Positions 40,388 to 58,117 of a stretch of 64,000 nt of DNA are shown in pieces (positions within the stretch are counted from its first letter, which is position 1; each line of letters starts with the position of its first letter). Under the pieces are notes generated by a model. It saw only the letters and a list, made by a program, of their open reading frames with translations, had not been told where the DNA came from and searched no databases. Location: the NCBI RefSeq assembly GCF_014197035.1, contig NZ_JACIEU010000021.1, forward strand, positions 1 to 64,000, in the 5' to 3' direction. The DNA comes from Sphingobium scionense. GTDB taxonomy: Bacteria; Pseudomonadota; Alphaproteobacteria; Sphingomonadales; Sphingomonadaceae. A program made the position numbers and the translations under genes.

Positions 40388-40462
40388 TCCCCGATAGCTC
40401 AGCGGTAGAGCATTCGACTGTTAATCGAATGGCCGTAGGTTCGAATCCTACTCGGGGAGCCA
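40388..40462 (+). tRNA. tRNA-Asn (anticodon GTT)
   Basis: 75 bases including an encoded CCA. The acceptor stem pairs TCCCCGA (40388-40394) with TCGGGGA (40452-40458); the D-arm is TAGCTCAGCGGTAGAGC, the anticodon loop CTGTTAA carries GTT, and the T-arm is GTTCGAATC. Its last 15 bases also encode, on the opposite strand, the end of the serine recombinase gene, so this is the integration site of the element to the right. Confidence 0.97.
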
Positions 40463-42019
40463 TTCAGAATCATCCGAGCCGCCCGGCCTTGCCGGGGGCT
40501 CGGATGCTGGATTTCCCGGCGACAATTTCTCAAGCATATCAAATGGTTCGCGGAAGGTAACGGTCAACTGTCCGTTTGCCCAAGAGCTGTTCAAAACCAG
40601 CAGATTCAAAGCGGTGTTCTTGCCATTTTGAGACTGTAGGTTGAACGTGGAATGCGCCTTTCGGGCGAGGTTTAGAAGAGCGATCCCATCATCAACGAAG
40701 GCGTCCTCCGCATTGTTGAGGACATCCAGTCTCCGAAGGCAGCCAGCTCGTTCTTCCCGCCAGGTGGCTGCCATGCGGTCGTGCATTTCGGCAGTGATGC
40801 GGCCATCGAGATGATCTACGTAAAGCTTGTCCAATCTTAGCTGCAGCCGATCAGCCTCGCCTCTGAGGCGATCGACCGTCTCCAATCGCTCCTTGTTCTT
40901 ATCACCGTGCGATTCGCGAATCGCCCGCTCGATCAGCGCGAAAATCTCATCGTCCATGTGAAGGCGGGAAAGCTGCTCAGAGAAGGCCTGAGCCAGGGTT
41001 TCTTCGCGCACATATTTTTCAGGGCATTTCTGCTTGAATCCTGAGCAGTGATAATAGATGTACCGGCCCCGCTGCATTTGCGCCACGACCGCGCAACCAC
41101 AATGTCCGCAGGTGATCAAGCCCGTAAAAGCAAATCGCAACGGCTCGGCCCGCACGTTGCTTGCGCTCCGGCCATCAAGAACCTCTTGAACGTTCTCCCA
41201 TGTCTCTTGGCTCACGACCGGCTCGTGAGTTCCTTGGTACAGGCGTCCGCCCCATTCAAAAGCGCCTGCATACAATCGATTGCGAAGCATGTAGTGTATC
41301 GTGCTGGTCCCGACGGGCTTCTGGCTCCGACGGTATCGAAGCCCGGCGGCCCGTGCTTTCTGGGTGACGTCCTTCAGGGCATAATCGCCCGTTTCAAACC
41401 ATTCGAACACGCGCGAAACGATGGGAGCGACATCCGGGTCGGGAACAATGATCTTCTTGCCCTGTGGACCCACGACGTTTAGATAGCCGAGTGGAGCCTG
41501 CGAAGGCCAGATTCCCTGCTTCGCCTTCTCCAGCATGCCCTTGCGGGCCTCCTCCGATAGGTTGTCGACATAGTTCTTGGCCATGAGGACCTTGATCCCA
41601 TGCATGAACTTCTCGGAGGAACGCGAGTCGCGTGAGAGCACCGTTCCCTCTTTTACCAGATGCAGTTCGATGTCGAACCCATCGAGAGTCACCCAATCCT
41701 TGATGTTGCGGTAAAGTCGATCCGTCTTCTCCACGAGGAGATGCCGGACGCCAGGATGGCTCCGAAGATATTTGAGCATCGCCTCAAACTGGGTCCGGCC
41801 GGTCTTTTTTGCAGTTTCGACATCGACATATTGCTGGGCGACCACGAACCCCATTCGTTCGGCATATTCGCGAATCAATGCGACCTGGGCGTCAATTGAA
41901 AAACCTTCCTTCTCCTGTTCGGCCGTCGAGACGCGCGCATAAAGGACCGCCTTTTGCGCTCCGCTCGACCGTCCGTTTGCAGGAGCTTGATTTTTGGGTT
42001 TGCGTGGACGTGCCATCAC
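40448..42019 (-). CDS. Large serine recombinase (site-specific integrase)
   Basis: A 523-residue recombinase. The N-terminal resolvase domain has KAVLYARVSTAEQEKEGFS, whose Ser (residue 31) is the expected nucleophile, and VEKTDRLYRNIKDW. A recombinase domain and a zinc ribbon (LITCGHCGCAVVAQM and YYHCSGFKQKCPEKY) follow, then a coiled-coil-like helix. Codons for the last residues (EWLPE) and the TAG stop coincide with the complement of the tRNA-Asn 3' end, so the gene's end is formed by the attachment site. It is 65 bases downstream of the AT-hook gene. Confidence 0.94.
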   Translation of the reverse strand: MMARPRKPKNQAPANGRSSGAQKAVLYARVSTAEQEKEGFSIDAQVALIREYAERMGFVVAQQYVDVETAKKTGRTQFEAMLKYLRSHPGVRHLLVEKTDRLYRNIKDWVTLDGFDIELHLVKEGTVLSRDSRSSEKFMHGIKVLMAKNYVDNLSEEARKGMLEKAKQGIWPSQAPLGYLNVVGPQGKKIIVPDPDVAPIVSRVFEWFETGDYALKDVTQKARAAGLRYRRSQKPVGTSTIHYMLRNRLYAGAFEWGGRLYQGTHEPVVSQETWENVQEVLDGRSASNVRAEPLRFAFTGLITCGHCGCAVVAQMQRGRYIYYHCSGFKQKCPEKYVREETLAQAFSEQLSRLHMDDEIFALIERAIRESHGDKNKERLETVDRLRGEADRLQLRLDKLYVDHLDGRITAEMHDRMAATWREERAGCLRRLDVLNNAEDAFVDDGIALLNLARKAHSTFNLQSQNGKNTALNLLVLNSSWANGQLTVTFREPFDMLEKLSPGNPASEPPARPGGSDDSEWLPE

Positions 42020-42477: not shown

Positions 42478-43034
42478 GGTCGTACCACCGAGCCAGAGTT
42501 TGAGAAAACATCGCCGCCAAAGCGACGCTCGAGATGGCGTGAGACCGATTCGACATACCTTCGCTGCCGCCAGCTCGTGGGGCTATGGTAGACGCCGACG
42601 GCTTTCCAATAATCGTGTGTGATGCTCAAAGCGGACAGGAAGATCCATCTGGCTGCCTGCACATTGAAGCATGCGTCGTTGGCAAGCCAAAAGCGGATAT
42701 CGCCAGCGGGGCGTCCAGTGAGCGCCGAGAGTTTTGGAACCCAGAAACTGTTGACTTGAAGCGGCCCCAGATCGTGAGTGCCGTTATTGTTTAGCACCTC
42801 GGCTCCGAGCCATCCGGCCTCCTGATCGCGGAGACCCCAGAGGGTCTTTTCTAGCCATGGCCGGCCCGCCGAAGCGACTTGGATGCATCGGGCGATCTCA
42901 CGTTCCGTGGCGGCAGACCCGATCGGTGGAGACGCCGCTGCCGCTGAACCGGACGGGAGGACGAGGCCTGCTACAAGCGCCGGCAAGGCATAGAGCCCTG
43001 ACCGCCACCGCAGGCGCATAAGGGGGAGTCTCAT
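42474..43034 (-). CDS. Conjugation-type lytic transglycosylase (SLT/VirB1-like)
   Basis: A 186-residue exported protein: hydrophobic signal (LYALPALVAGLVLPSGSAAA), then SLT-like LEKTLWGLRDQEAGWLG with a Glu as possible catalytic acid and LGPLQVNSFWVPKLSAL (the DxGxxQIN-like motif). VirB1-type enzymes open the murein layer for mating pores. It overlaps the Mrr-like gene by four bases and the AT-hook gene by four bases. Confidence 0.8.
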   Translation of the reverse strand: MRLPLMRLRWRSGLYALPALVAGLVLPSGSAAAASPPIGSAATEREIARCIQVASAGRPWLEKTLWGLRDQEAGWLGAEVLNNNGTHDLGPLQVNSFWVPKLSALTGRPAGDIRFWLANDACFNVQAARWIFLSALSITHDYWKAVGVYHSPTSWRQRRYVESVSRHLERRFGGDVFSNSGSVVRP

Positions 43035-43579
43035 ATGCGCTTCCCCCTGACCAGGACGGGTTCAACGCGAATGAGGGCGAGAAGTTGATCTCCCGATATG
43101 ATCTGGATATGAGGATGGCGATTGAGCAGCGTTCGGGTCGATGGTCCGGTTCGTCCAGTATGAATGAACAGCCCCGGCATGCTCTTTGCGGCACATAGCT
43201 GCGCGAACGCCTCAACATGTTCCGGCCGTATCGTATCTGCGTAGCGCTTGGCTTGGACAAGCCAGACCCAACCGCAAATTCTTACCTCCCCGTCGATACC
43301 TCCCTCGCCGGTGTAGCGACGGTTTCGGACTACGTGGATCGCGCGACGCTCAAAGCATTCCAGAAGGAGTTCCTCGAAAGCCAGGGGATCCATGTGGCGC
43401 AGCCGGGCGAAAACAACCGCCGGAGGTTGGGAGCGATCATGGCCCTGCAATTGCCGGCACATGATGCGTGCCTGTCGACGTCGCCATCGGTGCTTTACCG
43501 GAATACGCGAGCCGCGAAGGCACCAGAAAAGGAGCACAGCCCCGACGATGACAAGCCATATGGCCCAATCAGCGATCAT
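43031..43579 (-). CDS. Membrane-anchored Mrr-like restriction endonuclease-fold protein
   Basis: A 182-residue protein with one N-terminal membrane span (WAIWLVIVGAVLLFWCLRG) followed by a PD-(D/E)xK domain of the Mrr_cat type: DPLAFEELLLECFERRAI, YTGEGGIDGEV with the Asp, and WVWLVQAKRYADTI with the Gln-x-Lys, then PGLFIHTGRTG. It resembles DUF2034/Mrr-type nucleases found beside relaxases. ATG 43579 overlaps the relaxase end by 11 bases; the longer frame lies within the relaxase gene. Function in transfer or in immunity to it is not known. Confidence 0.78.
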   Translation of the reverse strand: MIADWAIWLVIVGAVLLFWCLRGSRIPVKHRWRRRQARIMCRQLQGHDRSQPPAVVFARLRHMDPLAFEELLLECFERRAIHVVRNRRYTGEGGIDGEVRICGWVWLVQAKRYADTIRPEHVEAFAQLCAAKSMPGLFIHTGRTGPSTRTLLNRHPHIQIISGDQLLALIRVEPVLVRGKRI

Positions 43580-46544
43580 GGCCGCCTCCGTGATCCTGGG
43601 AAGCAGCATGGGAAGGCTCGGGAGCCGGCTGGGGCGCCGTCCGAGCGACGCTCCCCTCTTCCCGGTCATCGCCTCGCTGGGAACTTCGTTCGAGCAGGGA
43701 TGTAACCCACCGGTCCATGAAGGACGCAGCCGACAACGCGCGATCCGCGATGCGCTCAGCCAATCCGGAAGGCTTTGCTCTTTCTGCAGACTCACGTTGC
43801 GCCGCCGGCTTGTCCTTGCGCTCCTCGCGATCCGCGCGTTGTCCGTCGCGGAGCCTGTCCCAGCGTTCGGTGTGGCGGGCCGAACGGCCCTTCACACTGT
43901 CCCGCTCAATCCGCCCCAAAGCCTGGAGAGAAGATGTCTTCTCGCCCGTACGCTGCTTGAGCTTTTCGACCAGCTTCTGCCGATTGTCCGTCCACAGGCT
44001 GGCGCCGAATCTCGCACGGGTGATCGCGGTGTAGAAGTTTTGCCCGGTAACCAGCGGCGAGTTGACAGGCGCCAACACATAAACCCGATCGTAAGTCTTG
44101 GACTGCGCCGAGTAGATGGTTTCACTATAACCATGGTCCCAGTTCTTGTGCTGGGAGAGATCGATTTCCTGGCTCCGACCATCCCGATCCCATCGGATCG
44201 TGGCAACCGTACTGTCGAGACGTTCTACGGTGCCTCGCTCCGCATTCTTGAGATCCAGTTCCTTGTTGACGAGGCGCCACTGGATGCGGTCGCCGGCGGC
44301 AAGGTCGCGTTGCTCCTCCTTGAAAACATTGATCTGGGCGGCCCGCCCCAGACGCGGATCCCACTGGATGGTGCGGCCATGTTCATCGACCAGATTGACC
44401 GTCTGACGCCCTCGGGCGTCTCGTCCCACACCAATCACCTTGTACTCGGCATCCCCGGCGATCCCGAGCCCGACGTTGTCGCGCGAGAACACCACGACCT
44501 GTCCACGAGAGTAGAAGCGCGCGAAATACTTCTCTTGCTCGGTCATGCCGGATGGCGCCAAAATCGATAGCCGGGTTTCCTCGGCCGCGATCGCACCTTC
44601 CGTTTTCAGTGCCTCGCGGATCTTGGTGTTCACGATCAGACGGGTTGTGTTTTCAAGCACGAGAATATTCGTCTTCTCGCGTCTTTCCGGACTGAGGCGC
44701 GTCCAGTCCGCCACGAGCGACACGGCAAGCTTTTCGCTGTCGTCCGCGGTCATCACTTTGTCCAGCGAGCTAAGCGAACCGTCGTAGTTCTGGAGCCGCG
44801 CCAGCCGCACGGCCTGTGTCATCTTGTCCGTTTCCTGCCGAACCGGCTCCCGCAATTCCGCCTTGGACAGGCCAAGACGTTGCATCAGCCAGAACGGCTT
44901 GCCCTGCTCGATCGCTCCCGTTTGGCGGGTGTCACCAATCAGTAGAAGACGAGCGCCGGTGCTCCTACTGATCTCGAGCAAACGCACTGCCTGGCGGTTG
45001 CCAAGCTGTCCGGCCTCATCGACGACAAGGACATGGCTTTCATCGAGCCTCGCGCCGCCGTTTGCCAACAGGCTGGCGACCGTTCGTGATTCGATGCCAG
45101 CTTTTTTACCCAGTTCGGCTGCGGCCGACGAGGTCGGGGCGAGAGCTATGAAGGTCGCATCCTCACCCGCAGCTTCCCGTAACGCGCCGATGATGGTCGA
45201 CTTGCCCGAACCGGCAACGCCGTGGACACCCACGATCCGGTCCTCGCTCCGACCCAGGTGAAGCAAGGCCGTCCGCTGCTCGGGGTTGAGGTTGTGGGCA
45301 AGACCTGCATCCCTGAGGGCTTCGATCGATGCTAGCGGGCTGGCGTCGGTGATGGCTAGGGCGAGATGATCGGAGAGCGCCATTTCGAGGCGCGCCGTCC
45401 TGCGTGACGTCCGACCGCGGGTGTGGATCTCGTCGCCGGTGCGGTGCCGGGTTTCGAGAAGTTTGGCCCGCGCCTGATGCTCCTCGATCACGGGACGGAT
45501 ATCAGACAGCCGAACCTCGCCGACATGTGAAGCCAGGGCCGTCTGCAACAGCCGGCCGAGATTGTTGACCGCCTCCTTGCCTTCCGACTGGCGCAGGCCG
45601 AACAGCATGGCCCGCGCCGCCGTCTGGGCCTCTACCTCGATACTGCGCTCACCGATCCTCTCGGCGTCGGCTCTCAGTTCCTTCACCGTCTCGGCATGTT
45701 GCCCGAGCTGACCGTCCCAACGCTGATGGAGTTCATCGAGAGAGGTTTTCTGTTTCGGCCCGCGGGTGGCATAGAATGATTTCTGCCGGGCCGCCTGCCC
45801 CGTCAGGCCGTGCTCTTTCGCGTGGGCTTCGATCTGCTCGGCGCGCTGCGACATGTCGGTGATCAGGTCTTTGGGCACACCCCTGATCTCGAACAGGCCG
45901 CGACGCGGGTCGTATTCGACATCGTAGCCGCGCTCGCGGAGGAGATGTGCCAGCTCGTTGCGATACACCTGCCCGGCCGCCATCTGCTCGGCGAACATGG
46001 CACGCGTTTCCAGGCTGACTTTCTTTGCTCCATCCCGTTCGTCGGTGATGTTCATGACGACGACATGCGTGTGGAGATGCGGGTCGAGCTCACGAGAGGC
46101 GTGCTCCGTGAAACGCGCCCAGATCAGCCGGCTGGTCGTCTTCTCGGTAACCTCCCCATCGACGCGATGCCGCATCGTGGCATGTTCTTCGAGATAGGCG
46201 AGTGCGACACCGACCGCCTGCTCATGGGCATCGATGATCCTGTCATCACCGGCGACCAGCGCCATGATCGATACCGATTTGGGTGCGTTGACCGCGAAGT
46301 CCCAACCCGGATGATGCTGGATGTTGCCGTCCTTACGGCGACGCCCTAGTTGCTGATCGCCGATCTTACCGGCTAAGAGTTCCTTGAAGACGGCAGGATC
46401 CACCTCGCCTTCCAGTCCCAGTTCGGTGGCAATCTTGCCTCCCCATTCGGAATGCTCGTCGGTACCTTTGGTGTAGTAATCGCCAACCGTGTAGTAGCGA
46501 GCGATGTTGGCTGGCTTGCCTTTGAGGCGGATGGGATTGATCAT
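43569..46544 (-). CDS. MobF-family conjugative relaxase/helicase (TraA/TrwC type)
   Basis: A 991-residue relaxase that should nick and unwind the transfer strand. N-terminal TrwC domain with tyrosine pairs at 17-18 and 23-24 (ARYYTVGDYYTKG), HHPGWDFAVNAPKSVSIMAL and the three-His metal site DPHLHTHVVV (156, 158, 160). The helicase half has GVHGVAGSGKST (Walker A), LVVDEAGQL (Walker B), LLIGDTRQTGAI and a final TAITRARFG motif. The C-terminus is a charged, disordered tail. It overlaps the TraD-type gene by four bases. Confidence 0.95.
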   Translation of the reverse strand: MINPIRLKGKPANIARYYTVGDYYTKGTDEHSEWGGKIATELGLEGEVDPAVFKELLAGKIGDQQLGRRRKDGNIQHHPGWDFAVNAPKSVSIMALVAGDDRIIDAHEQAVGVALAYLEEHATMRHRVDGEVTEKTTSRLIWARFTEHASRELDPHLHTHVVVMNITDERDGAKKVSLETRAMFAEQMAAGQVYRNELAHLLRERGYDVEYDPRRGLFEIRGVPKDLITDMSQRAEQIEAHAKEHGLTGQAARQKSFYATRGPKQKTSLDELHQRWDGQLGQHAETVKELRADAERIGERSIEVEAQTAARAMLFGLRQSEGKEAVNNLGRLLQTALASHVGEVRLSDIRPVIEEHQARAKLLETRHRTGDEIHTRGRTSRRTARLEMALSDHLALAITDASPLASIEALRDAGLAHNLNPEQRTALLHLGRSEDRIVGVHGVAGSGKSTIIGALREAAGEDATFIALAPTSSAAAELGKKAGIESRTVASLLANGGARLDESHVLVVDEAGQLGNRQAVRLLEISRSTGARLLLIGDTRQTGAIEQGKPFWLMQRLGLSKAELREPVRQETDKMTQAVRLARLQNYDGSLSSLDKVMTADDSEKLAVSLVADWTRLSPERREKTNILVLENTTRLIVNTKIREALKTEGAIAAEETRLSILAPSGMTEQEKYFARFYSRGQVVVFSRDNVGLGIAGDAEYKVIGVGRDARGRQTVNLVDEHGRTIQWDPRLGRAAQINVFKEEQRDLAAGDRIQWRLVNKELDLKNAERGTVERLDSTVATIRWDRDGRSQEIDLSQHKNWDHGYSETIYSAQSKTYDRVYVLAPVNSPLVTGQNFYTAITRARFGASLWTDNRQKLVEKLKQRTGEKTSSLQALGRIERDSVKGRSARHTERWDRLRDGQRADREERKDKPAAQRESAERAKPSGLAERIADRALSAASFMDRWVTSLLERSSQRGDDREEGSVARTAPQPAPEPSHAASQDHGGGHDR

Positions 46545-51419: not shown

Positions 51420-52173
51420 GACTTCATCCTTTCTCTGTGCTGTGGTCCGTTTCTCTTTCCCGGCCACATCAGAACCCTACCCCCTCCCCTCCCTTACTTC
51501 CATGTCATTGATTTCTTGACAGAAATCTATCGTACCTGGTGAGCCCGAGCATCGAACGGCCGCGCCAGCGGCCCCCAAATGACGAAGACGCACCGGCCGC
51601 CTGCGGCCGGTTCCGCCTGAATGGAAAGGGAGCGTGGGCCGGCTGACACGTCATCGCACCCGGAGCCGCCCTCGCAGGCCCGAAGGCGCAGGGCGGGGCT
51701 CTTGTCCGCAAGAAGCACGGGAGGGGCTCTAGCGAAGCTTGGCGAAAAGGGGCCGGCGCTTCTGCTGAAAACAGACAAACATCGCCGGCCCCTTTTCGCC
51801 TAGCGCAGCTTTGCCCCGACGCAATTCTTGCGGACGAAACCCGTCCTGCAACGCACGGATCCTGCGAGGGCGGCGAAGGGGGCGATGCTTGTCGGCTGGC
51901 TCCACGATCCGCATCGCGCGCCAGCGCGATTCCTTAGGCGAAGCCTGAAATGCGATGGTCGTGCAGATCGTCAATTCGTCCGGGGGAAGAAGCTCCCTCG
52001 CCGCAAGCGCCCGCGGAAGGGATCGTCACCGCGCAGCGGACAAGACCCCGGAGGGGGCTTGGTCGGAGCGGAGCGGAGATAGAGCCCGGTGCCCGCACAA
52101 GCGGGCATCCGCCCTCCCCAGCGCTGCCCGTGCAACCCGAACTGCCACCGTACGGCGGGAAGATCCGCCCCGG
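51420..52173. other. 754-base region without a gene, containing inverted repeats
   Basis: I see only short shadow frames here. GATTTCTTGACAGAAATC at 51510-51527 is an inverted repeat (six-base arms) upstream of the DUF736 gene and could be an operator. A much stronger hairpin lies at 51741-51800 (listed separately). Base composition is as for the neighbours. A small RNA or a lost gene cannot be excluded. Confidence 0.4.
51741..51800. repeat. Long perfect hairpin, 18-base arms
   Basis: The arms GGCGAAAAGGGGCCGGCG (51741-51758) and CGCCGGCCCCTTTTCGCC (51783-51800) are exactly complementary with a 24-base spacer. It is by far the strongest hairpin seen in the element. It lies 374 bases downstream of the peptidase gene stop on the minus strand, so it could end that operon, or it may be a small RNA or replication feature. 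Confidence 0.7.
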
Positions 52174-53451
52174 TCACGCAAAGGGCTCAAGCACTTCACC
52201 GCCGTCCCGCCGAATTCCAACGCAATCGCCACAGAGCCTGAGCGAAGGCACACCCGGCATCGCCTCCGCCGCATTGACGAGACGATAATCGTCGGCCGGA
52301 TCGCCGCAGGCCGAGCAGATGTCGGCGGTCCCCATGCGCTCGATGGAGAGACGGGCGATGGCGGCAAGTCGCGGCTCCACGCGGTCCACGATCGCAAACC
52401 ACAATTCCGAGTGCGGCGTGATGCGCTGCAGATGGAGAGCGGCTTCACCGGGATGGTGGCGCCTCAGCCGACCCAGGGCGACCTCGCGCCGGGTCTGATC
52501 ATTGACGACCAGTTGCCGGTAGAGCGCCACGAGCTGCGCCGTTGTCCGTCGGCCGTTGGTGGCCAGGGCCTGCTGATAGTGAATGAGATTGACGGCGAAG
52601 CGCAGGCCGCCGGTGTGGAATTCGCGAATGGTGCTGATGCAATATGCAAGGAGGCCCCGATCGGGGAAGGATCCGGCGCTCGCCTCCATGGCGTCCAGAT
52701 CATAGTGCCAGGGATTGATCGCATAATCGGCTTGCCACAGGTCGAGATAGCCGCTGTCCCGGTAGACGCGGGCGATCCGCTCGTCCCACTCCGGATGGTC
52801 CTGGACGAGGCGATCAAGGTCGTTGAAGTTCTCGACGGAGGGATCGAGGTCACGCGCGGCGGTCAGGATCCGGTTCTGGACCTCCTGCATCTCGGCGATC
52901 GGGTTGGGACGCGCGGCCCACGCCGCCAGTTCGGCCTGCGACACCGGCTCGGTCATGTCGGGAAGCTCGGCGAGAAGCGGGCTGCGCCGGATGTGCTCGG
53001 GGGTACAATAGTCGGGATCGGGCACAAGGTGGACAGCGGCACTGGCAAAGGCCCGGGCAACAAGGCGTGAACAGAAGAGCTGTTTTGTCCTTGGCCGGAG
53101 GCCGGGCAGGACCGATCGCGCCGCCTCACTTCTGGAATAGCGGGTTCCGATCTCGGAGCGGGCGAAGTCGATCACCGTACCGAGCTGAACATCGGTAAGG
53201 GGCCGACGGAGGCGCAGCACGGCGATATGGCCGTCAGGCCCGTAAAGCTCCCGCTGGATATTGTGCGCCTGCACGCCGTCGTCGGTCGAGTCGATGACCG
53301 ACCCGTGCTGCACGCAGATCATCGCATGCGATACCTGCCCCTTGCTGGCCAGGCGAATGGCCTTGCTCATCTTGCCGCTGGACGCCGTGAGGATGATGTC
53401 CCCCGGCATGAGCCGTTCGACCTTGATCCGGCGGATTTCCTCGTCAGGCAT
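52174..53451 (-). CDS. Permuted papain-fold (YiiX/NlpC-like) protein with C-terminal zinc ribbon
   Basis: A 425-residue protein. The N-terminal region resembles permuted NlpC/P60 (YiiX-like) enzymes: LMPGDIILTASS, VSHAMICVQHGSVIDST with a His (42), and KQLFCSRLVARAFA with a Cys (127), which is the His-before-Cys order of the permuted group. The middle is of unknown fold. The C-terminus holds a four-Cys ribbon (Cys 379, 382, 407, 410). It is the last gene of a four-gene operon, nine bases behind the cyclase-like gene. A protease, amidase or lipid thioesterase role is possible. Confidence 0.7.
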   Translation of the reverse strand: MPDEEIRRIKVERLMPGDIILTASSGKMSKAIRLASKGQVSHAMICVQHGSVIDSTDDGVQAHNIQRELYGPDGHIAVLRLRRPLTDVQLGTVIDFARSEIGTRYSRSEAARSVLPGLRPRTKQLFCSRLVARAFASAAVHLVPDPDYCTPEHIRRSPLLAELPDMTEPVSQAELAAWAARPNPIAEMQEVQNRILTAARDLDPSVENFNDLDRLVQDHPEWDERIARVYRDSGYLDLWQADYAINPWHYDLDAMEASAGSFPDRGLLAYCISTIREFHTGGLRFAVNLIHYQQALATNGRRTTAQLVALYRQLVVNDQTRREVALGRLRRHHPGEAALHLQRITPHSELWFAIVDRVEPRLAAIARLSIERMGTADICSACGDPADDYRLVNAAEAMPGVPSLRLCGDCVGIRRDGGEVLEPFA

Positions 53452-53460
53452 CGGGCACCG

Positions 53461-54237
53461 TCAACCGAGGTTGCTGGAGTCGAGCGTCCCGCGGATCCAT
53501 GCGGCGGGCGGCTGTTCGGTATCGATATAGTCCCGGATCGCCCGCTCGGCGTCCGCAGGCGCCCTGCCGACGCCTGCCTGTGAGGCTATGCGGTCGATAT
53601 GCGGGTGCCGGGCATGAACCCAGTCGAGGACCGTGAGGGCGTCATGGCCAGCGACAGTCCGGCGGGGAAAGCTCGGGGATATCCTGAGGCTGTCCGCGGT
53701 CGTGACGGTAAGGATCGATCCTTTGACGGGGTTGCGGGCATCGAGCTTGTTGGCGGCGATCAGCGCGGTTCCCATGACGGGCAACAATGTCATGAGGCCG
53801 CTTCCCATCGACACGAAATCGTCCGATCCCTCCCGCGTAACGGCGTCCTGGATGATCCTGGGCCATAGGCCCGAGATGTCGGCGAACTCGCCTTCGGCTA
53901 TGGCCGCGCGGGCGAGGCATCCGGCGTTGGATATGTGCCGCATGAGCGCGACGGCGATGGCGGCACAGCGATCGAGCCGGGGCTCGTGAAAGTCCGCGAC
54001 GATGATGAACCCGTCCCCGAACTGGTGGGCGAAGAGGCGGTCTCCGTCATCGCGATAAAGGCGGTTTCCGAGATTGTAGATACCCTCCATGAGTGCCCGC
54101 AGGCCCGCTACGGCCTTGCGGCCGCGCACCCATAATGTGCTGAAGCCTTCAACGTCGATCCAGATCGACCACCGCTTGCCGTCTTCGACCGGGACGGGCT
54201 CGCCCGAACCGTCATGCGCGCTGCCCATCGCCATCAT
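53461..54237 (-). CDS. Class III nucleotide-cyclase-like protein
   Basis: A 258-residue protein. WSIWIDVEGFSTLWVRG and HQFGDGFIIVADF carry the two metal-binding Asp residues (28 and 75) of class III cyclases, 47 residues apart as expected. Later MGTALIAANKLDARNPVKGS aligns with the usual G-x-x-V-N-x-x-x-R-L segment, but the Asn is Ile (160) and the Arg is Lys (164), so transition-state contacts differ. It may make an unusual cyclic nucleotide, as Pycsar cyclases do, or bind nucleotide only. ATG 54237 overlaps the upstream stop as ATGA. Confidence 0.65.
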   Translation of the reverse strand: MMAMGSAHDGSGEPVPVEDGKRWSIWIDVEGFSTLWVRGRKAVAGLRALMEGIYNLGNRLYRDDGDRLFAHQFGDGFIIVADFHEPRLDRCAAIAVALMRHISNAGCLARAAIAEGEFADISGLWPRIIQDAVTREGSDDFVSMGSGLMTLLPVMGTALIAANKLDARNPVKGSILTVTTADSLRISPSFPRRTVAGHDALTVLDWVHARHPHIDRIASQAGVGRAPADAERAIRDYIDTEQPPAAWIRGTLDSSNLG

Positions 54238-56606
54238 CCTGTCATTACTGCGCCGGCACACCCGGCTACGTCGGCGGGCGGCTCGCACCGCTCATGGACC
54301 AGTCCAAGCCTCTGTCCGATCGAACGATCGAGCCCCCGACGGATCTGGACGGCGACATCTCCGCCCAGCTCATTGGGCGAGAGGCCCAGCAGAGCGATCA
54401 GGCGTCGGCGCAGCTCGGGGATATATTTGAGGAACGCACGCGCCTTGGGTTGCCCGGCCAATAGCGTCTCGATCGCGTCGAAGCTCCAGAGGATGGTGAT
54501 CCAGCATTCCATGAAGTCGATGGGCATGCCGGCATAGTCACGCGCCATCATGAGCCGGGTGATTGCCGGACGGCGGCCGCAGAAGAAGCCGACAAGGATC
54601 CGGACGACGAAGCGTGGCCAGGACAGCATAGCCTCCGAACCGTCAAGACCGTGCGGCATTTCGGGGCAGCGCGCCTTGTAGAGGAGGAGCAGGATCCAGA
54701 AGCGCAGGCGCAGGACGTCGCCCGGTCCGAGCAGCTCTTCGCCGGCTTCGAGACCTTCGGCATAGGCAAGCACATGGCGTTCGTAGAGGCGCGCGTCGAC
54801 AGGAGCAGGATCGATGGGCGCCTCCCCCGGCGGCGGAGGCCGCTCGGGGACGCCCCCATCCTCCTCCTCGGGATCGACGTTGTCTCTTTCGTCGTCAGGT
54901 TCGTCAAAAGCGGAATCATGATCTTCGTGCCGCAGGGGGTTTTGGCCGGAGAGAAGATTGAGGAAATCGCGGACGACGTCGCTATGGGTGCCGGCGAGAC
55001 TGTTCGCAGCGGCAAAGCCGGCTCGCCCGCCGCCGGATCGCGCCTGCATGAACGTCTCGTAGCTCAGCGATACACCCGCTTCGGTCGCGCTGTCGCGCTT
55101 GCCCGAAGGCCCGCGCGCGGCCGCAAGCGGAGCAGAGCAGGTCGCATGCTCGAAGTCCGCTCGCGCGAGTGTCTCGAAGGCTTGATGCATCCAGAGGTCG
55201 AAATCGCTTCCCTGGATGAACGGGGCAAGCGCGCGGGCGACAGCGCCCGTGGCGATTTCCCTGCGCCGGCCACGCAGGAGATTGCGGTGCGTCACATGGG
55301 TGATGGTCGAGTGGAAATCGCCTGCGGTGTACCGTGCGAAGCAGAGCGAGTGATGGAGCCCCGGATCGAGGAGTGCGGTGCGCATGTCGCCGGACTGGGC
55401 GAAGGATGTGACCGGAAGGGCAAGGAGCAGATCAGCCTTATTGTCGAGAAGCTCGATGTCGCCTCTATCGAAATCCGGACCTGCGGGGCACCAGATGAGC
55501 ATGCCATCGTCGAGGTCGAAGGTGCCGGGGTGTCGCGCCGCGATCGCCTTGAGAGGAATGGGCGCCGATAGGGTGCGCGGCGGAAGGTCGGACAGCGAGA
55601 TGGGTTCCCCGTCAAGCCAGCGATCGAGTTCGAGGATTTCCCGTGCCGTGCCGCGGGGCAGCCTTCGATAGATGCAGGCCTCGGCGTTGGCGCCCACGGC
55701 CCCGGGAGCGCCCAGCGCCGCTGTCGTGCAATTGGCGCTGCCGAATAGGAGGTGGTCATGGCGGGCGGTGGTCGCAAGGAAGATCTTGGCGTGGGTGAAG
55801 CGCCGGGTGGGCCAGCCAAGTGCGACGATGCGAGGCTTGCCGGCGAAGGGCGCATCGACTGGAAACGCGTGGCCACTGCTGTCGATCGGAAGGATGATCC
55901 GGTCCGGCGCGAGGCGATGGGAGAGATTGGCGAGAGCCGCGAGATCATCGTCCCAATAGGGGCTGATGATCATGAGCGACTGCACCTTCTCGCCCCCGAC
56001 GAAGGAGACGAACTGGTCGCCGATCCCTGCTTGGCCCGGCGCATGGAGGAACGCGATTGCCGACCCGTCCTCCAGTTGATGCAGGGCCGGCCCCGGCGGT
56101 CCGTCCAGCCAGGCTGCGCGCTCGCGTGCCCAGCGCAGGGCATCCCGGGCCGGAGAGCCGTGTGGGGGCACGAGCGCCTCCAAATACCGCCAGATCGACC
56201 GGACCATGGTCCGCTCGGGCCCCTCTTCATCCTTGCATTCGATCTCGATCGCGATTTCGGCATTTCCGGCCAGGCCTGCCGCGGTCAGATTGGCGGAACT
56301 GACGAACGCGCGTGCATTCTCGCGGCCGATCTGCAGAATGATCTTGGGGTGGAAAATCCCGTCCGCCGCTGGCGGACTATGGAGCGCATATTCGCGCCCC
56401 AGCGCTGTGGGGAGGATCGATCCATCCGAGAGGGCAAGCGAGGCCATGCGCGCGTCGGTGAGAAGAAGCAGGTTCGTTGCGCCGCTCGCGATGAGCTGCG
56501 GCAGGAGGATTTGCTCGACGGCGGCGAACTCCACGGCGAAGCTCGTAGCGACCGCGCTGTGAAAGGCGCGCCCGGGACGCCGGCCGAGGCGATCGGGAAG
56601 CCTCAC
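54234..56606 (-). CDS. Two-HKD phospholipase D-fold protein
   Basis: A 790-residue protein. Two HKD-type motifs are visible: HPKIIL with SSAN (His 86, Lys 88, Asn 106) and THAKIFL with GSANCT (His 272, Lys 274, Asn 292). The two together form one active site in phosphodiesterases and nucleases of this family. The rest (about residues 330-790) has no recognisable domain; an acid-rich stretch (DEPDDERDNVDPEEEDGG) separates it. Coupled to the gene upstream and to the cyclase-like gene downstream. Nuclease is more likely than lipase on a mobile element. Confidence 0.78.
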   Translation of the reverse strand: MRLPDRLGRRPGRAFHSAVATSFAVEFAAVEQILLPQLIASGATNLLLLTDARMASLALSDGSILPTALGREYALHSPPAADGIFHPKIILQIGRENARAFVSSANLTAAGLAGNAEIAIEIECKDEEGPERTMVRSIWRYLEALVPPHGSPARDALRWARERAAWLDGPPGPALHQLEDGSAIAFLHAPGQAGIGDQFVSFVGGEKVQSLMIISPYWDDDLAALANLSHRLAPDRIILPIDSSGHAFPVDAPFAGKPRIVALGWPTRRFTHAKIFLATTARHDHLLFGSANCTTAALGAPGAVGANAEACIYRRLPRGTAREILELDRWLDGEPISLSDLPPRTLSAPIPLKAIAARHPGTFDLDDGMLIWCPAGPDFDRGDIELLDNKADLLLALPVTSFAQSGDMRTALLDPGLHHSLCFARYTAGDFHSTITHVTHRNLLRGRRREIATGAVARALAPFIQGSDFDLWMHQAFETLARADFEHATCSAPLAAARGPSGKRDSATEAGVSLSYETFMQARSGGGRAGFAAANSLAGTHSDVVRDFLNLLSGQNPLRHEDHDSAFDEPDDERDNVDPEEEDGGVPERPPPPGEAPIDPAPVDARLYERHVLAYAEGLEAGEELLGPGDVLRLRFWILLLLYKARCPEMPHGLDGSEAMLSWPRFVVRILVGFFCGRRPAITRLMMARDYAGMPIDFMECWITILWSFDAIETLLAGQPKARAFLKYIPELRRRLIALLGLSPNELGGDVAVQIRRGLDRSIGQRLGLVHERCEPPADVAGCAGAVMTG

Positions 56607-58117
56607 CGGGACATTTCTAGGGCGCCAAGCCCAAGCGGGGTCAGCCCCTCCACATCGAGGAGATGGATGTCTTCGAGAAACTGGATCGCCGGCGCGAGGC
56701 GCGGCGTGGTAGCGACCGGCTGATAGCCCGAAAGGAAGACGAGGCGTCCGTCGCGCTGCTCGAACAGGAAGGTATAGTCGCGCTGTCGCCGGAGCTTCTG
56801 CATCGCGACCCAGCTGTGGCGCCGGACGACGCGCTCGATCACATAATCGCCGATCAGATCAGCGACTGTGTCGGACTCATGGCTTTCGAGCCAGTCCAGT
56901 TCGCTGCGCAGCGACCGTGCCGCTCCGCGGCCGGGCAGCCCGCGCGTCGCCGCTCCGGCGAGATCGGGTCGTGCCCGAAGCCGCTGGTGCAAGGCTGCCA
57001 TGAGCATGATGGCAGGGACGGTCCGGCCGACCGGCGCGGCGCGGCTGTTGGTCAGCTCCTCCCATATGGCCCGATAGGGGAAGCTTAGCGGGTCCAGGCT
57101 CAGCCGAAGGCTGCGCCAGCTTGCCTGGAAGGACGCTTCGCCATGACCGGAGAGGTGGCCGACGACCTCCTGGCGGATATCGGAAAGCGTTGGCCCAGGC
57201 CCATCGGCGTTGATGATCGCGATGGCCCAGGCCAGCAGGGCAGCCGACGCCACCTGCATCAGATCCTGGCATTGATAGGCCTCCCAACTGAGGCGTTGGT
57301 CCTCGAGGTGCGCGGGCAAGGCTTCGGCCGGGGGATCGAACAGGTGCCAGCGGACATCCTCGGGTCCGGGGCGTCCGCCCGTGGCGCGCGCTGTCTCCAG
57401 GATGAGCCCGAGCGTGGCGGCGCGGCTCTTTGCGCTTTGCGCGGGCGATGCCTCGCGCGCGAAGAGCAGTGTTTCATAGAAGCGACACTCGTCGCTGTCG
57501 GGCGAGATATGCGAGGGCACGATCGGTTCGAGCCGTTCGAGTTCGTGGATGCTGATGCGGGCCTCGGCGATTTTCCGGGCCAGGAGTTTCGTGCAATCGG
57601 TTCCGACCGCTTGGGCGAAGAGATCGGCCGCGCGCCGGCCGAGATCGCGGGTGACGACCTGTATGCCGTGCCGGTTCTCGGTGAAGAGGCCCATTTCGGC
57701 CATTTGCGTATAATAGGCGCCGCCGAAGACACCGAGCGACTGGCGCAGATAGCGTTCCTGGGACGGGTCGGTCGATGCGGCGGCGGCGAAGTCGATGACC
57801 GGCTCCGCCGCGGCCAATCGGCGATTGGCCCATTCCACGCCGCCCACGCCGCCTTCCCCGGCGCGCGCGGAGACAAGGGCATAGAGGGCCTCGGCACGCC
57901 GTATCCAATTGCGCCAGGCCTCGAAGTCGCTGGAGGCGGCGCTGCGGGCATAAGTTTCGCTCAGCCAGCAATAAAAGCCGTAATAGCGCATCCGCAGGGT
58001 GACGTTGCTGATGCCGGGCAGCAGCGACTGGTAGAGGAGGACACCGCTATTCTGCATCCCGAGCGGATCGAGACCGCGCTTGTCGGCCTTTTCGGTCCAT
58101 TGCGGCAATAGATGCAA
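56603..58117 (-). CDS. DUF6361-like protein of unknown function
   Basis: A 504-residue protein. The N-terminus (RGLDPLGMQNSG, then LLPGISNVTLRMRYYGFYCW) has the layout of DUF6361-type proteins, which carry a similar L-PG-S-x-x-x-R-x-RYY-F-x-W run, though I cannot be sure of membership. The rest is helical with winged-helix-like stretches and a final beta-rich piece (YTFLFEQRDGRLVFLSGYQP). It is the first gene of the operon 58117-52174 and overlaps the PLD gene by four bases, so the two likely work as a unit. Confidence 0.6.
   Translation of the reverse strand: MHLLPQWTEKADKRGLDPLGMQNSGVLLYQSLLPGISNVTLRMRYYGFYCWLSETYARSAASSDFEAWRNWIRRAEALYALVSARAGEGGVGGVEWANRRLAAAEPVIDFAAAASTDPSQERYLRQSLGVFGGAYYTQMAEMGLFTENRHGIQVVTRDLGRRAADLFAQAVGTDCTKLLARKIAEARISIHELERLEPIVPSHISPDSDECRFYETLLFAREASPAQSAKSRAATLGLILETARATGGRPGPEDVRWHLFDPPAEALPAHLEDQRLSWEAYQCQDLMQVASAALLAWAIAIINADGPGPTLSDIRQEVVGHLSGHGEASFQASWRSLRLSLDPLSFPYRAIWEELTNSRAAPVGRTVPAIMLMAALHQRLRARPDLAGAATRGLPGRGAARSLRSELDWLESHESDTVADLIGDYVIERVVRRHSWVAMQKLRRQRDYTFLFEQRDGRLVFLSGYQPVATTPRLAPAIQFLEDIHLLDVEGLTPLGLGALEMSR

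Follow-up and report, generated by a model that had tools for sequence, protein, structure and literature searches.

The stretch of DNA analysed here (the window) comprises 64,000 nucleotides of Sphingobium scionense (contig NZ_JACIEU010000021.1, positions 1 to 64,000). At positions 52174-58117 it contains four tightly spaced genes, which the original prediction, made from the sequence alone, had described as one operon on a mobile element and possibly as a defence module. The comparison of these genes with those of other genomes, plasmids and viral contigs leads to the conclusions that: (i) the operon is defence-type mobile cargo, which is well supported; (ii) genes 1 and 2 are a conserved and widespread two-gene core; (iii) the existence of one four-part system across varied taxa is not supported. 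The best explanation of the whole, to which about an even chance is given, is a mobile defence operon made of a ZacAB-like nuclease core, a putative regulator (CYC) and a putative accessory protein (PAP). Loci that were opened are numbered L and genomes G; lengths are in amino acids (aa) and E stands for E-value.

56603-58117, minus strand: gene 1, ZacA-like protein of 504 aa (PADLOC ZacA, E 0.0018; AlphaFold2 (AF2) model).
54234-56606, minus strand: gene 2, ZacB-like PLD-family putative nuclease with two half-sites, 790 aa (PLDc_2 and PADLOC ZacB).
53461-54237, minus strand (open reading frame (ORF) open to 54288): gene 3, CYC, class III cyclase-like candidate of 258 aa (motif and profile).
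52174-53451, minus strand: gene 4, PAP, predicted C92 (YiiX-type) permuted papain-fold hydrolase of 425 aa (Peptidase_C92 and PDB profiles).

The ORFs and their joins are as originally described, i.e., two 4-base overlaps (56603/56606 and 54234/54237) and 9 bases at 53451-53461. Gene 1 starts with TTG and gene 2 with GTG. Gene 3 has 275 aa from a GTG at 54288 and 258 aa from the ATG at 54237; the latter, which overlaps the PLD stop codon, is the most likely start. Among named genomes, Sphingobium has the closest homologues of the operon. The ratio of non-synonymous to synonymous substitution (dN/dS, Nei-Gojobori), calculated against the homologous loci L001, L002 and L004, ranges from 0.12 to 0.26 in 11/11 gene comparisons; PAP was used in L001 only as far as its frame break and is absent from L004, and the L002 PLD stretch overran its stop (9874) by about 16 codons. 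All four genes are under purifying selection. The frame break is found in the PAP gene of Sphingobium estronivorans (L001:10793-12062), near residue 321. A promoter and terminator scan of the operon was uninformative. A household function is rejected: the genes are mobile-element cargo and show no sign of such a role.

Gene 2 is the PLD member of the core. PLDc_2 is matched at 32.4 bits, above the Pfam gathering score of 27, and the two HKD sites that had been read in the protein are both present.

56343-56351, minus strand: first HxK of the PLD protein (H86, K88), invariant in the 11-row alignment.
55785-55793, minus strand: second HxK of the PLD protein (H272, K274), invariant in the 11-row alignment.

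Together with the S, N and E residues that accompany them, these residues are unchanged in 11/11 rows. Gene 2 is, by its sequence, a PLD-family protein with both half-sites intact and a putative nuclease. Its top PADLOC match is ZacB (E 5.4e-14, 50 bits, vs. 409.2 for a canonical ZacB), and the PLD profile finds nothing among PDB sequences at E 1. The PLD motif is also a point of likeness to DrmC of DISARM; gene 2 was rejected as a DrmC, with 23.4 bits vs. an NCBIfam cut-off of 133.

Gene 1 is more remote. No Pfam or NCBIfam family is found at E 0.1 and the sole PADLOC match is ZacA, with E 0.0018 and 15.9 bits over 64 residues (298.5 for a canonical ZacA). The proposal that gene 1 is DUF6361-like was a fair remote guess: besides the PADLOC match to ZacA just given, a canonical ZacA gene, that of the Bradyrhizobium plasmid pBel61, is named «DUF6361 family protein» by NCBI. 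Within the library of papers searched, no description of this four-gene set was returned and no paper mentions DUF6361. The AF2 model of gene 1 is helical (pLDDT 84.9, pTM 0.85) and has no match at E 0.001 or better in PDB and BFVD. With VIA-align, residues ~43-174 weakly resemble MukF (Z 4.5, root-mean-square deviation (rmsd) 3.4, 79 aligned) and JetA (Z 3.4, rmsd 3.6, 93 aligned), in parts that we take to be winged-helix domains. The top Z is 5.3 and the matches are scattered among the families compared. No fold is given to gene 1 because these Z values are too low and the matches too scattered; the possible winged-helix resemblance of residues 43-174 is a lead only.

The pair is widespread. 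With gene 1, tblastn retrieved 15 plasmid records, 7/15 being typed conjugative, from hosts that include Sphingopyxis, Roseovarius, Polaromonas, Undibacterium, Prevotella and Myroides. Ten plasmid loci were opened: in nine the PLD gene follows gene 1 with an overlapping junction, and in the tenth (L029) a short gene 1 match stands alone, with no PLD. In IMG/VR, 5 stretches match gene 1 and 11 match gene 2, on 12 distinct contigs; the two genes are adjacent in 11/12, and L049 has a shortened gene 2 only. ZacA has no match among 50,697 phage records. The pair thus found spans Alphaproteobacteria, Betaproteobacteria and Bacteroidota. The third gene after the plasmid pair varies: in Sphingopyxis it codes for 191 aa, in Prevotella for a protein annotated as a C39 peptidase, and it differs again elsewhere. 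On Polaromonas pPNAP01 (L023), Zorya genes precede the pair (ZorB 329.5 and ZorD 1532.8 bits), and in L022, L027 and L028 the pair is near restriction genes. It must be noticed that an ADP-ribosylglycohydrolase-like gene (assigned by eye) comes after the pair on two viral contigs (L046:11852-12634 and L047:12154-12996).

Genes 1 and 2 look like distant relatives of ZacA and ZacB of Azaca, as judged from their sequences. The composition of Azaca was taken from PADLOC model names, from the pBel61 locus and from passages in PMC12278908, PMC12926258, PMC10952713, PMC11224242 and PMC12657218. pBel61 carries the canonical system: ZacA 298.5, ZacB 409.2 and ZacC 920 bits in PADLOC. The likeness lies in the order (ZacA, then a PLD-family ZacB), in the PADLOC matches and in the defence neighbourhoods. 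The differences lie in size, i.e., 504 and 790 aa in the window vs. 422 and 591 in pBel61, and in membership: the window operon has CYC and PAP and no nearby ZacC. Canonical ZacC has 1049 aa, and the PLD gene is the only ORF of at least 600 aa within 48.6-64 kb of the window. Likewise L001, L002 and L004 have no called gene above 336 aa within 6 kb upstream; genes 3 and 4 are not helicases in the Pfam scan. Because the helicase ZacC is absent, the operon is not Azaca by membership.

The mobile-element setting proposed for the operon is confirmed: a MobF relaxase and TraD are encoded close by. A nearly continuous block of the window (~43.5-58.9 kb) recurs in L001 and L002 at ~80% DNA identity, with a break of ~400 bases in L001. 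The recurrence of the four genes on islands of varied taxa, which had been expected of a single module, is not found. Three loci have the complete set and one more has genes 1-3; all four belong to one sphingomonad conjugative element, where they occupy the same position. A rival reading is that the operon works for that element (plasmid competition, entry exclusion or addiction) and not in anti-phage defence. In the four copies the operon adjoins DUF736, YspA-like genes and TraD, with MobF coming next in three of them (window, L001 and L002); ZacA homologues also occur on the conjugative plasmids counted above. Such a role is nevertheless improbable in our estimate, for two related MobF backbones (L091, and L092 which also has DUF736, DUF2493 and a coupling protein) carry none of the four genes in the stretches opened, and the ZacA-PLD core is found also on viral-collection contigs and beside Zorya.

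The resemblance of CYC to class III nucleotide cyclases, the plausible part of what had been predicted for gene 3, is seen in two aspartates, 47 residues apart and invariant in 11/11 sequences.

54154-54156, minus strand: CYC D28, first metal-type Asp (IDxEGF), invariant 11/11, placed by a weak profile alignment on DIxGF.
54013-54015, minus strand: CYC D75, second metal-type Asp (FGD), invariant 11/11, aligned with the class III IGD.

This weak but unforced profile alignment matches D28 and D75 with the pair of metal aspartates in class III domains, and GTALIAANKLD of CYC with the GDaVNxAaRL motif. The class III set comprised 21 domains from 25 loci, two having been left out for internal stops and two because they had been read on the wrong strand. 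The combined pattern DxxGF plus GD, which was composed after the CYC sequences had been seen, is found in 9/9 CYC rows, 12/21 class III domains and 0/709 non-CYC ORFs. A class III-like fold is, in our judgement, rather likely for CYC.

CYC is found in 6/100 relatives including the own genome, in 5/396 genomes of the order, 5/397 of the family and 2/385 of the class, and in 1/398 of the phylum, i.e., the own genome only; these samples overlap, and some genomes, the own one among them, enter more than once. One of the six relatives (G001) was dropped as a chance match (E 1.8e-4, 39% over 70 residues, opposite another called gene). When contigs were searched with only gene 3, four named loci were obtained, in genomes already among those counted. 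In total there are 11 CYC sequences, ten in one family and one (G511) elsewhere in the class. CYC comes after ZacAB in 4/11 loci, all of one element family, and occurs without ZacAB in 7/11.

The neighbours of CYC outside the ZacAB loci are varied. In Sphingopyxis indica (L003), CYC lies 150-220 bases 3' of a SIR2/short-Argonaute pair (1432.6 and 472 bits). In G037 (L011), it follows a DSR1 that is split into two genes (340.1 and 302.3 bits), and IetA-IetS lie upstream. The CYC of G511 (L034) has QatA at ~2 kb and QatC further away (881.5 and 611.6 bits), and a TIR-type protein (303.6 bits) stands on its other side. A type IIG-like methylase-nuclease match is 5.7 kb from CYC in G223, and no recognised system is found among the scanned neighbours in G271. 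In G1331 (L090:8151-10447), the gene that begins 8 bases after CYC codes for a 268-aa protein whose C-terminus reads, by eye, as a membrane-like segment, and a gene for a 236-aa protein, weakly matched to HEPN (E 0.0052), is also near; this locus resembles a small system of its own. A 309-aa protein (MKIILACDESGAKGYADQ...) near CYC is common to L031 (10951-11880) and L032 (7964-8893); it has no match in Pfam (L032) or PADLOC (L031 and L032), and presumably resembles DUF3800.

In the CYC tree, the Argonaute-linked CYC groups with the ZacAB-linked ones (97/100), the order within the group being left open. Because of this grouping, the partners of CYC probably changed within a close clade. It is conceivable, although on the doubtful side, that CYC acts as an immune accessory bound to no single system. 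As a nucleotide sensor of cyclase type, or a signal-maker of altered chemistry, it would join the 3' ends of unrelated defence operons (ZacAB, SIR2-Argonaute, DSR1, possibly Qat and membrane effectors) and gate them in answer to a common nucleotide cue, PAP being a second add-on.

In PAP, Peptidase_C92 is matched at 38.6 bits vs. a gathering score of 27, in agreement with the permuted papain fold first read in the sequence, and PDB profile matches are obtained with 3kw0 (E 2.1e-7) and YiiX 2if6 (E 4.4e-6).

53326-53328, minus strand: PAP H42, putative catalytic His, invariant 8/8.
53071-53073, minus strand: PAP C127, putative catalytic Cys, invariant 8/8.
52222-52317, minus strand: PAP C-terminal CxxC...CxxC, zinc-ribbon-like by sequence reading, in 5/8 aligned homologues.

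H42 and C127, which we equate with the catalytic residues of the C92 family, are invariant in the 8/8 aligned homologues; PAP is a predicted C92 permuted papain-like hydrolase. It resembles the YaeF/YiiX hydrolases in its score above the gathering threshold, in the kept His and Cys and in the two PDB profile matches, and differs from them by a long C-terminal region with CxxC...CxxC and by its defence-type neighbourhoods. Among plasmids, 114 records match PAP, 8 of them over at least 80% of the length. Eight plasmid matches were opened; two were unannotated and 5/6 of the remaining ones are near defence-labelled genes. PAP relatives are found: (i) near IetAS, with RES-domain genes between, in L035 (PADLOC) and L036 (annotation); (ii) near methylases and canonical Azaca in L037; (iii) next to AbiH in L040 and to a TIR protein in L042 (both by annotation). 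L039 has no defence-labelled neighbour.

The results gathered in this paragraph and the next two weigh against the explanation of the operon as a ZacAB-like core completed by CYC and PAP. The relation of the core to Azaca is distant: with the pBel61 proteins, genes 1 and 2 give local alignments only (the ZacA BLASTP match covers 64 residues), and the window-family profiles do not reach the pBel61 Azaca at E 1e-5. The window pair thus looks like a distant ZacAB sister, since the similarity is only local. Moreover, the counts of defence neighbours for CYC, PAP and the pair are given with no background rate for random genes.

Neither CYC nor PAP is bound to the core. All four families were tested on 27 opened loci, within the stretches opened: nine plasmid ZacA-PLD pairs have neither CYC nor PAP, and the seven other CYC loci and the eight PAP loci have none of the other three families. 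CYC is absent from the plasmids and viral contigs searched, and PAP from the viral contigs searched. In G1184 (L089), CYC stands alone among transfer genes that read as type IV secretion-like. In L004, the transfer side and genes 1-3 are common with the window, while the place of PAP is taken by other genes.

L004:10778-13904, convergent with ZacA-ZacB-CYC: Gabija-type GajB/GajA, 615.2/745.6 bits (PADLOC).

In L002 the PLD gene stops earlier and 99 bases part it from the matching ATG of CYC. Because of these co-occurrence patterns, ZacAB-CYC is considered as the cargo of one element family, with the place after CYC open to other cargo. The strongest rival explanation is drawn from the same results: CYC and PAP would be stand-alone accessories, i.e., independent cargo 3' of ZacAB, ZacAB alone being the defence system and no single mechanism joining the four genes. 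The nine plasmid pairs and 11 viral-contig pairs of ZacAB without CYC and PAP, the Gabija of L004, the 7/11 CYC loci without ZacAB and the gap of L002 all speak for it. On the other hand, the 4-base overlap of PLD with CYC is kept in 3/4 loci (window, L001 and L004), so that translational coupling is likely; CYC comes after ZacAB in 4/4 element copies despite 65-81% identity and with low dN/dS; and L011 shows likewise a 4-base overlap, between CYC and the second DSR1 gene. A coupling of this kind would be unexpected in a passive passenger, and independent cargo is kept as a possible, though not a probable, account. What had been predicted as a defence module thus holds in part: the operon is cargo, gene 2 (and weakly gene 1) resembles a component of an anti-phage system and each part recurs beside established defence systems, whereas a complete four-gene module in varied taxa is not supported. 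A widespread core of two genes with two mobile accessories describes the finding better.

The third set of results concerns the cyclase character of CYC. Class III cyclases usually have a transition-state Asn and Arg. By the weak alignment, CYC has at these positions Ile (160, 11/11) and K/T/A/R (164).

53758-53760, minus strand: CYC I160, at the usual transition-state Asn position, Ile 11/11, as placed by the weak alignment.

Guanylate_cyc is the sole Pfam family reached by CYC, in 2/11 members (E 0.027 and 0.11; limits were E 10 for eight members and E 1 for three); the second match has 12.5 bits vs. a cut-off of 21.9, i.e., below the profile cut-off. The window CYC has no Pfam or NCBIfam family at E 0.1, and the own genome has no PF00211 match at E 0.001. 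With nine rows, hhalign gives 20.17 for CYC vs. class III and 20.57 for an unrelated PLD alignment; among 100 column shuffles the maximum is 20.74 and the 95th value 19.59. With 11 rows, the real score of 20.77 is reached by 6/200 column shuffles. The cyclase-like label of the original prediction is, on these results, plausible with weak support. The AF2 model of CYC (pLDDT 36) was not used. Nothing relevant was found by sequence in PDB, and the four CYC proteins scanned in PADLOC gave no match.

Canonical cyclase activity of CYC is, in our judgement, doubtful. If CYC were an active nucleotide cyclase, as the CBASS/Pycsar analogy of the original prediction would have it, the operon would be Pycsar-like, and ZacAB and/or PAP would be the effector that answers its signal. 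CYC resembles PycC as a small stand-alone protein beside candidate effectors, with two metal-type Asp at similar spacing: 47 residues between D28 and D75, and, in the passages of PMC11224242 that deal with PycC, the pairs D62/D106 and D102/D146. The CYC of L090, followed after 8 bases by a membrane-like protein, is also arranged as a cyclase and a membrane effector. CYC differs from PycC by the Ile aligned to the usual Asn, by the lack of a PADLOC match in the four proteins scanned or of a PDB sequence match, and by its position 3' of ready-made defence systems in three contexts. In addition, no cyclic-nucleotide-binding domain is found in the partner proteins scanned, and the window neighbours (PLD and C92) have neither that nor a transmembrane (TM) or TIR Pfam domain. 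An active cyclase in a Pycsar-like operon is thus unlikely. Panoptes offers another comparison: passages of PMC12657218 describe OptS (mCpol), a palm-type nucleotide enzyme, which is paired with the membrane effector OptE and restrains it. The CYC and membrane-protein pair of L090 is formally similar in gene arrangement, the only feature compared; the partners of CYC are, by contrast, mostly nucleases or SIR2 systems.

Three features of the surrounding element were also noted. A near-perfect hairpin of ~230-250 nucleotides lies at 51640-51900, between PAP and the DUF736 gene; its DNA fold has a value of -92.4 vs. -56.4 +/- 3.4 for shuffles (z -10.5). It is also present in L001, L002 and L004, and once only in the own genome, where a second match is the reverse complement of the hairpin itself; its Rfam matches are below gathering scores. 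Because L004 keeps the hairpin without PAP, it belongs to the element backbone, and may be an origin of transfer (oriT), a small RNA or an insert like a miniature inverted-repeat transposable element (MITE). A large serine recombinase with Resolvase, Recombinase and zinc-ribbon matches lies at 40388-42019, directly beside tRNA-Asn; together they are likely an integration module. An Mrr_cat restriction endonuclease ORF (43031-43795) has the same orientation as the MobF relaxase ORF and overlaps the 3' end of the latter.

Under the preferred explanation, i.e., a mobile defence operon with a ZacAB-like core, a CYC regulator and a PAP accessory, we infer the anti-phage activity, the cleavage of DNA by the PLD protein, the control of the core by CYC and the substrate of PAP along the following lines. 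The ZacA-like helical protein, possibly DNA-binding, would sense or bind invading DNA with the PLD nuclease, and the latter would cut incoming phage or plasmid DNA. CYC would bind, and perhaps convert, a nucleotide, and thereby report or set the state that switches the nuclease on. PAP, as a papain-fold amide hydrolase, may be a second effector or a processing enzyme. CYC and PAP would have been added to the core in this conjugative element family.

The ZacAB-like cassette defined here is broader than Azaca and has no helicase. CYC and PAP may be two accessory families that move between unrelated immune systems. If the view of CYC as a system-independent accessory is true, unrelated immune systems of bacteria would have a plug-in layer of regulation in common, of which the literature searches made found no description. 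If, in particular, CYC gates several systems by one nucleotide cue, it would constitute a shared control layer of bacterial immunity.

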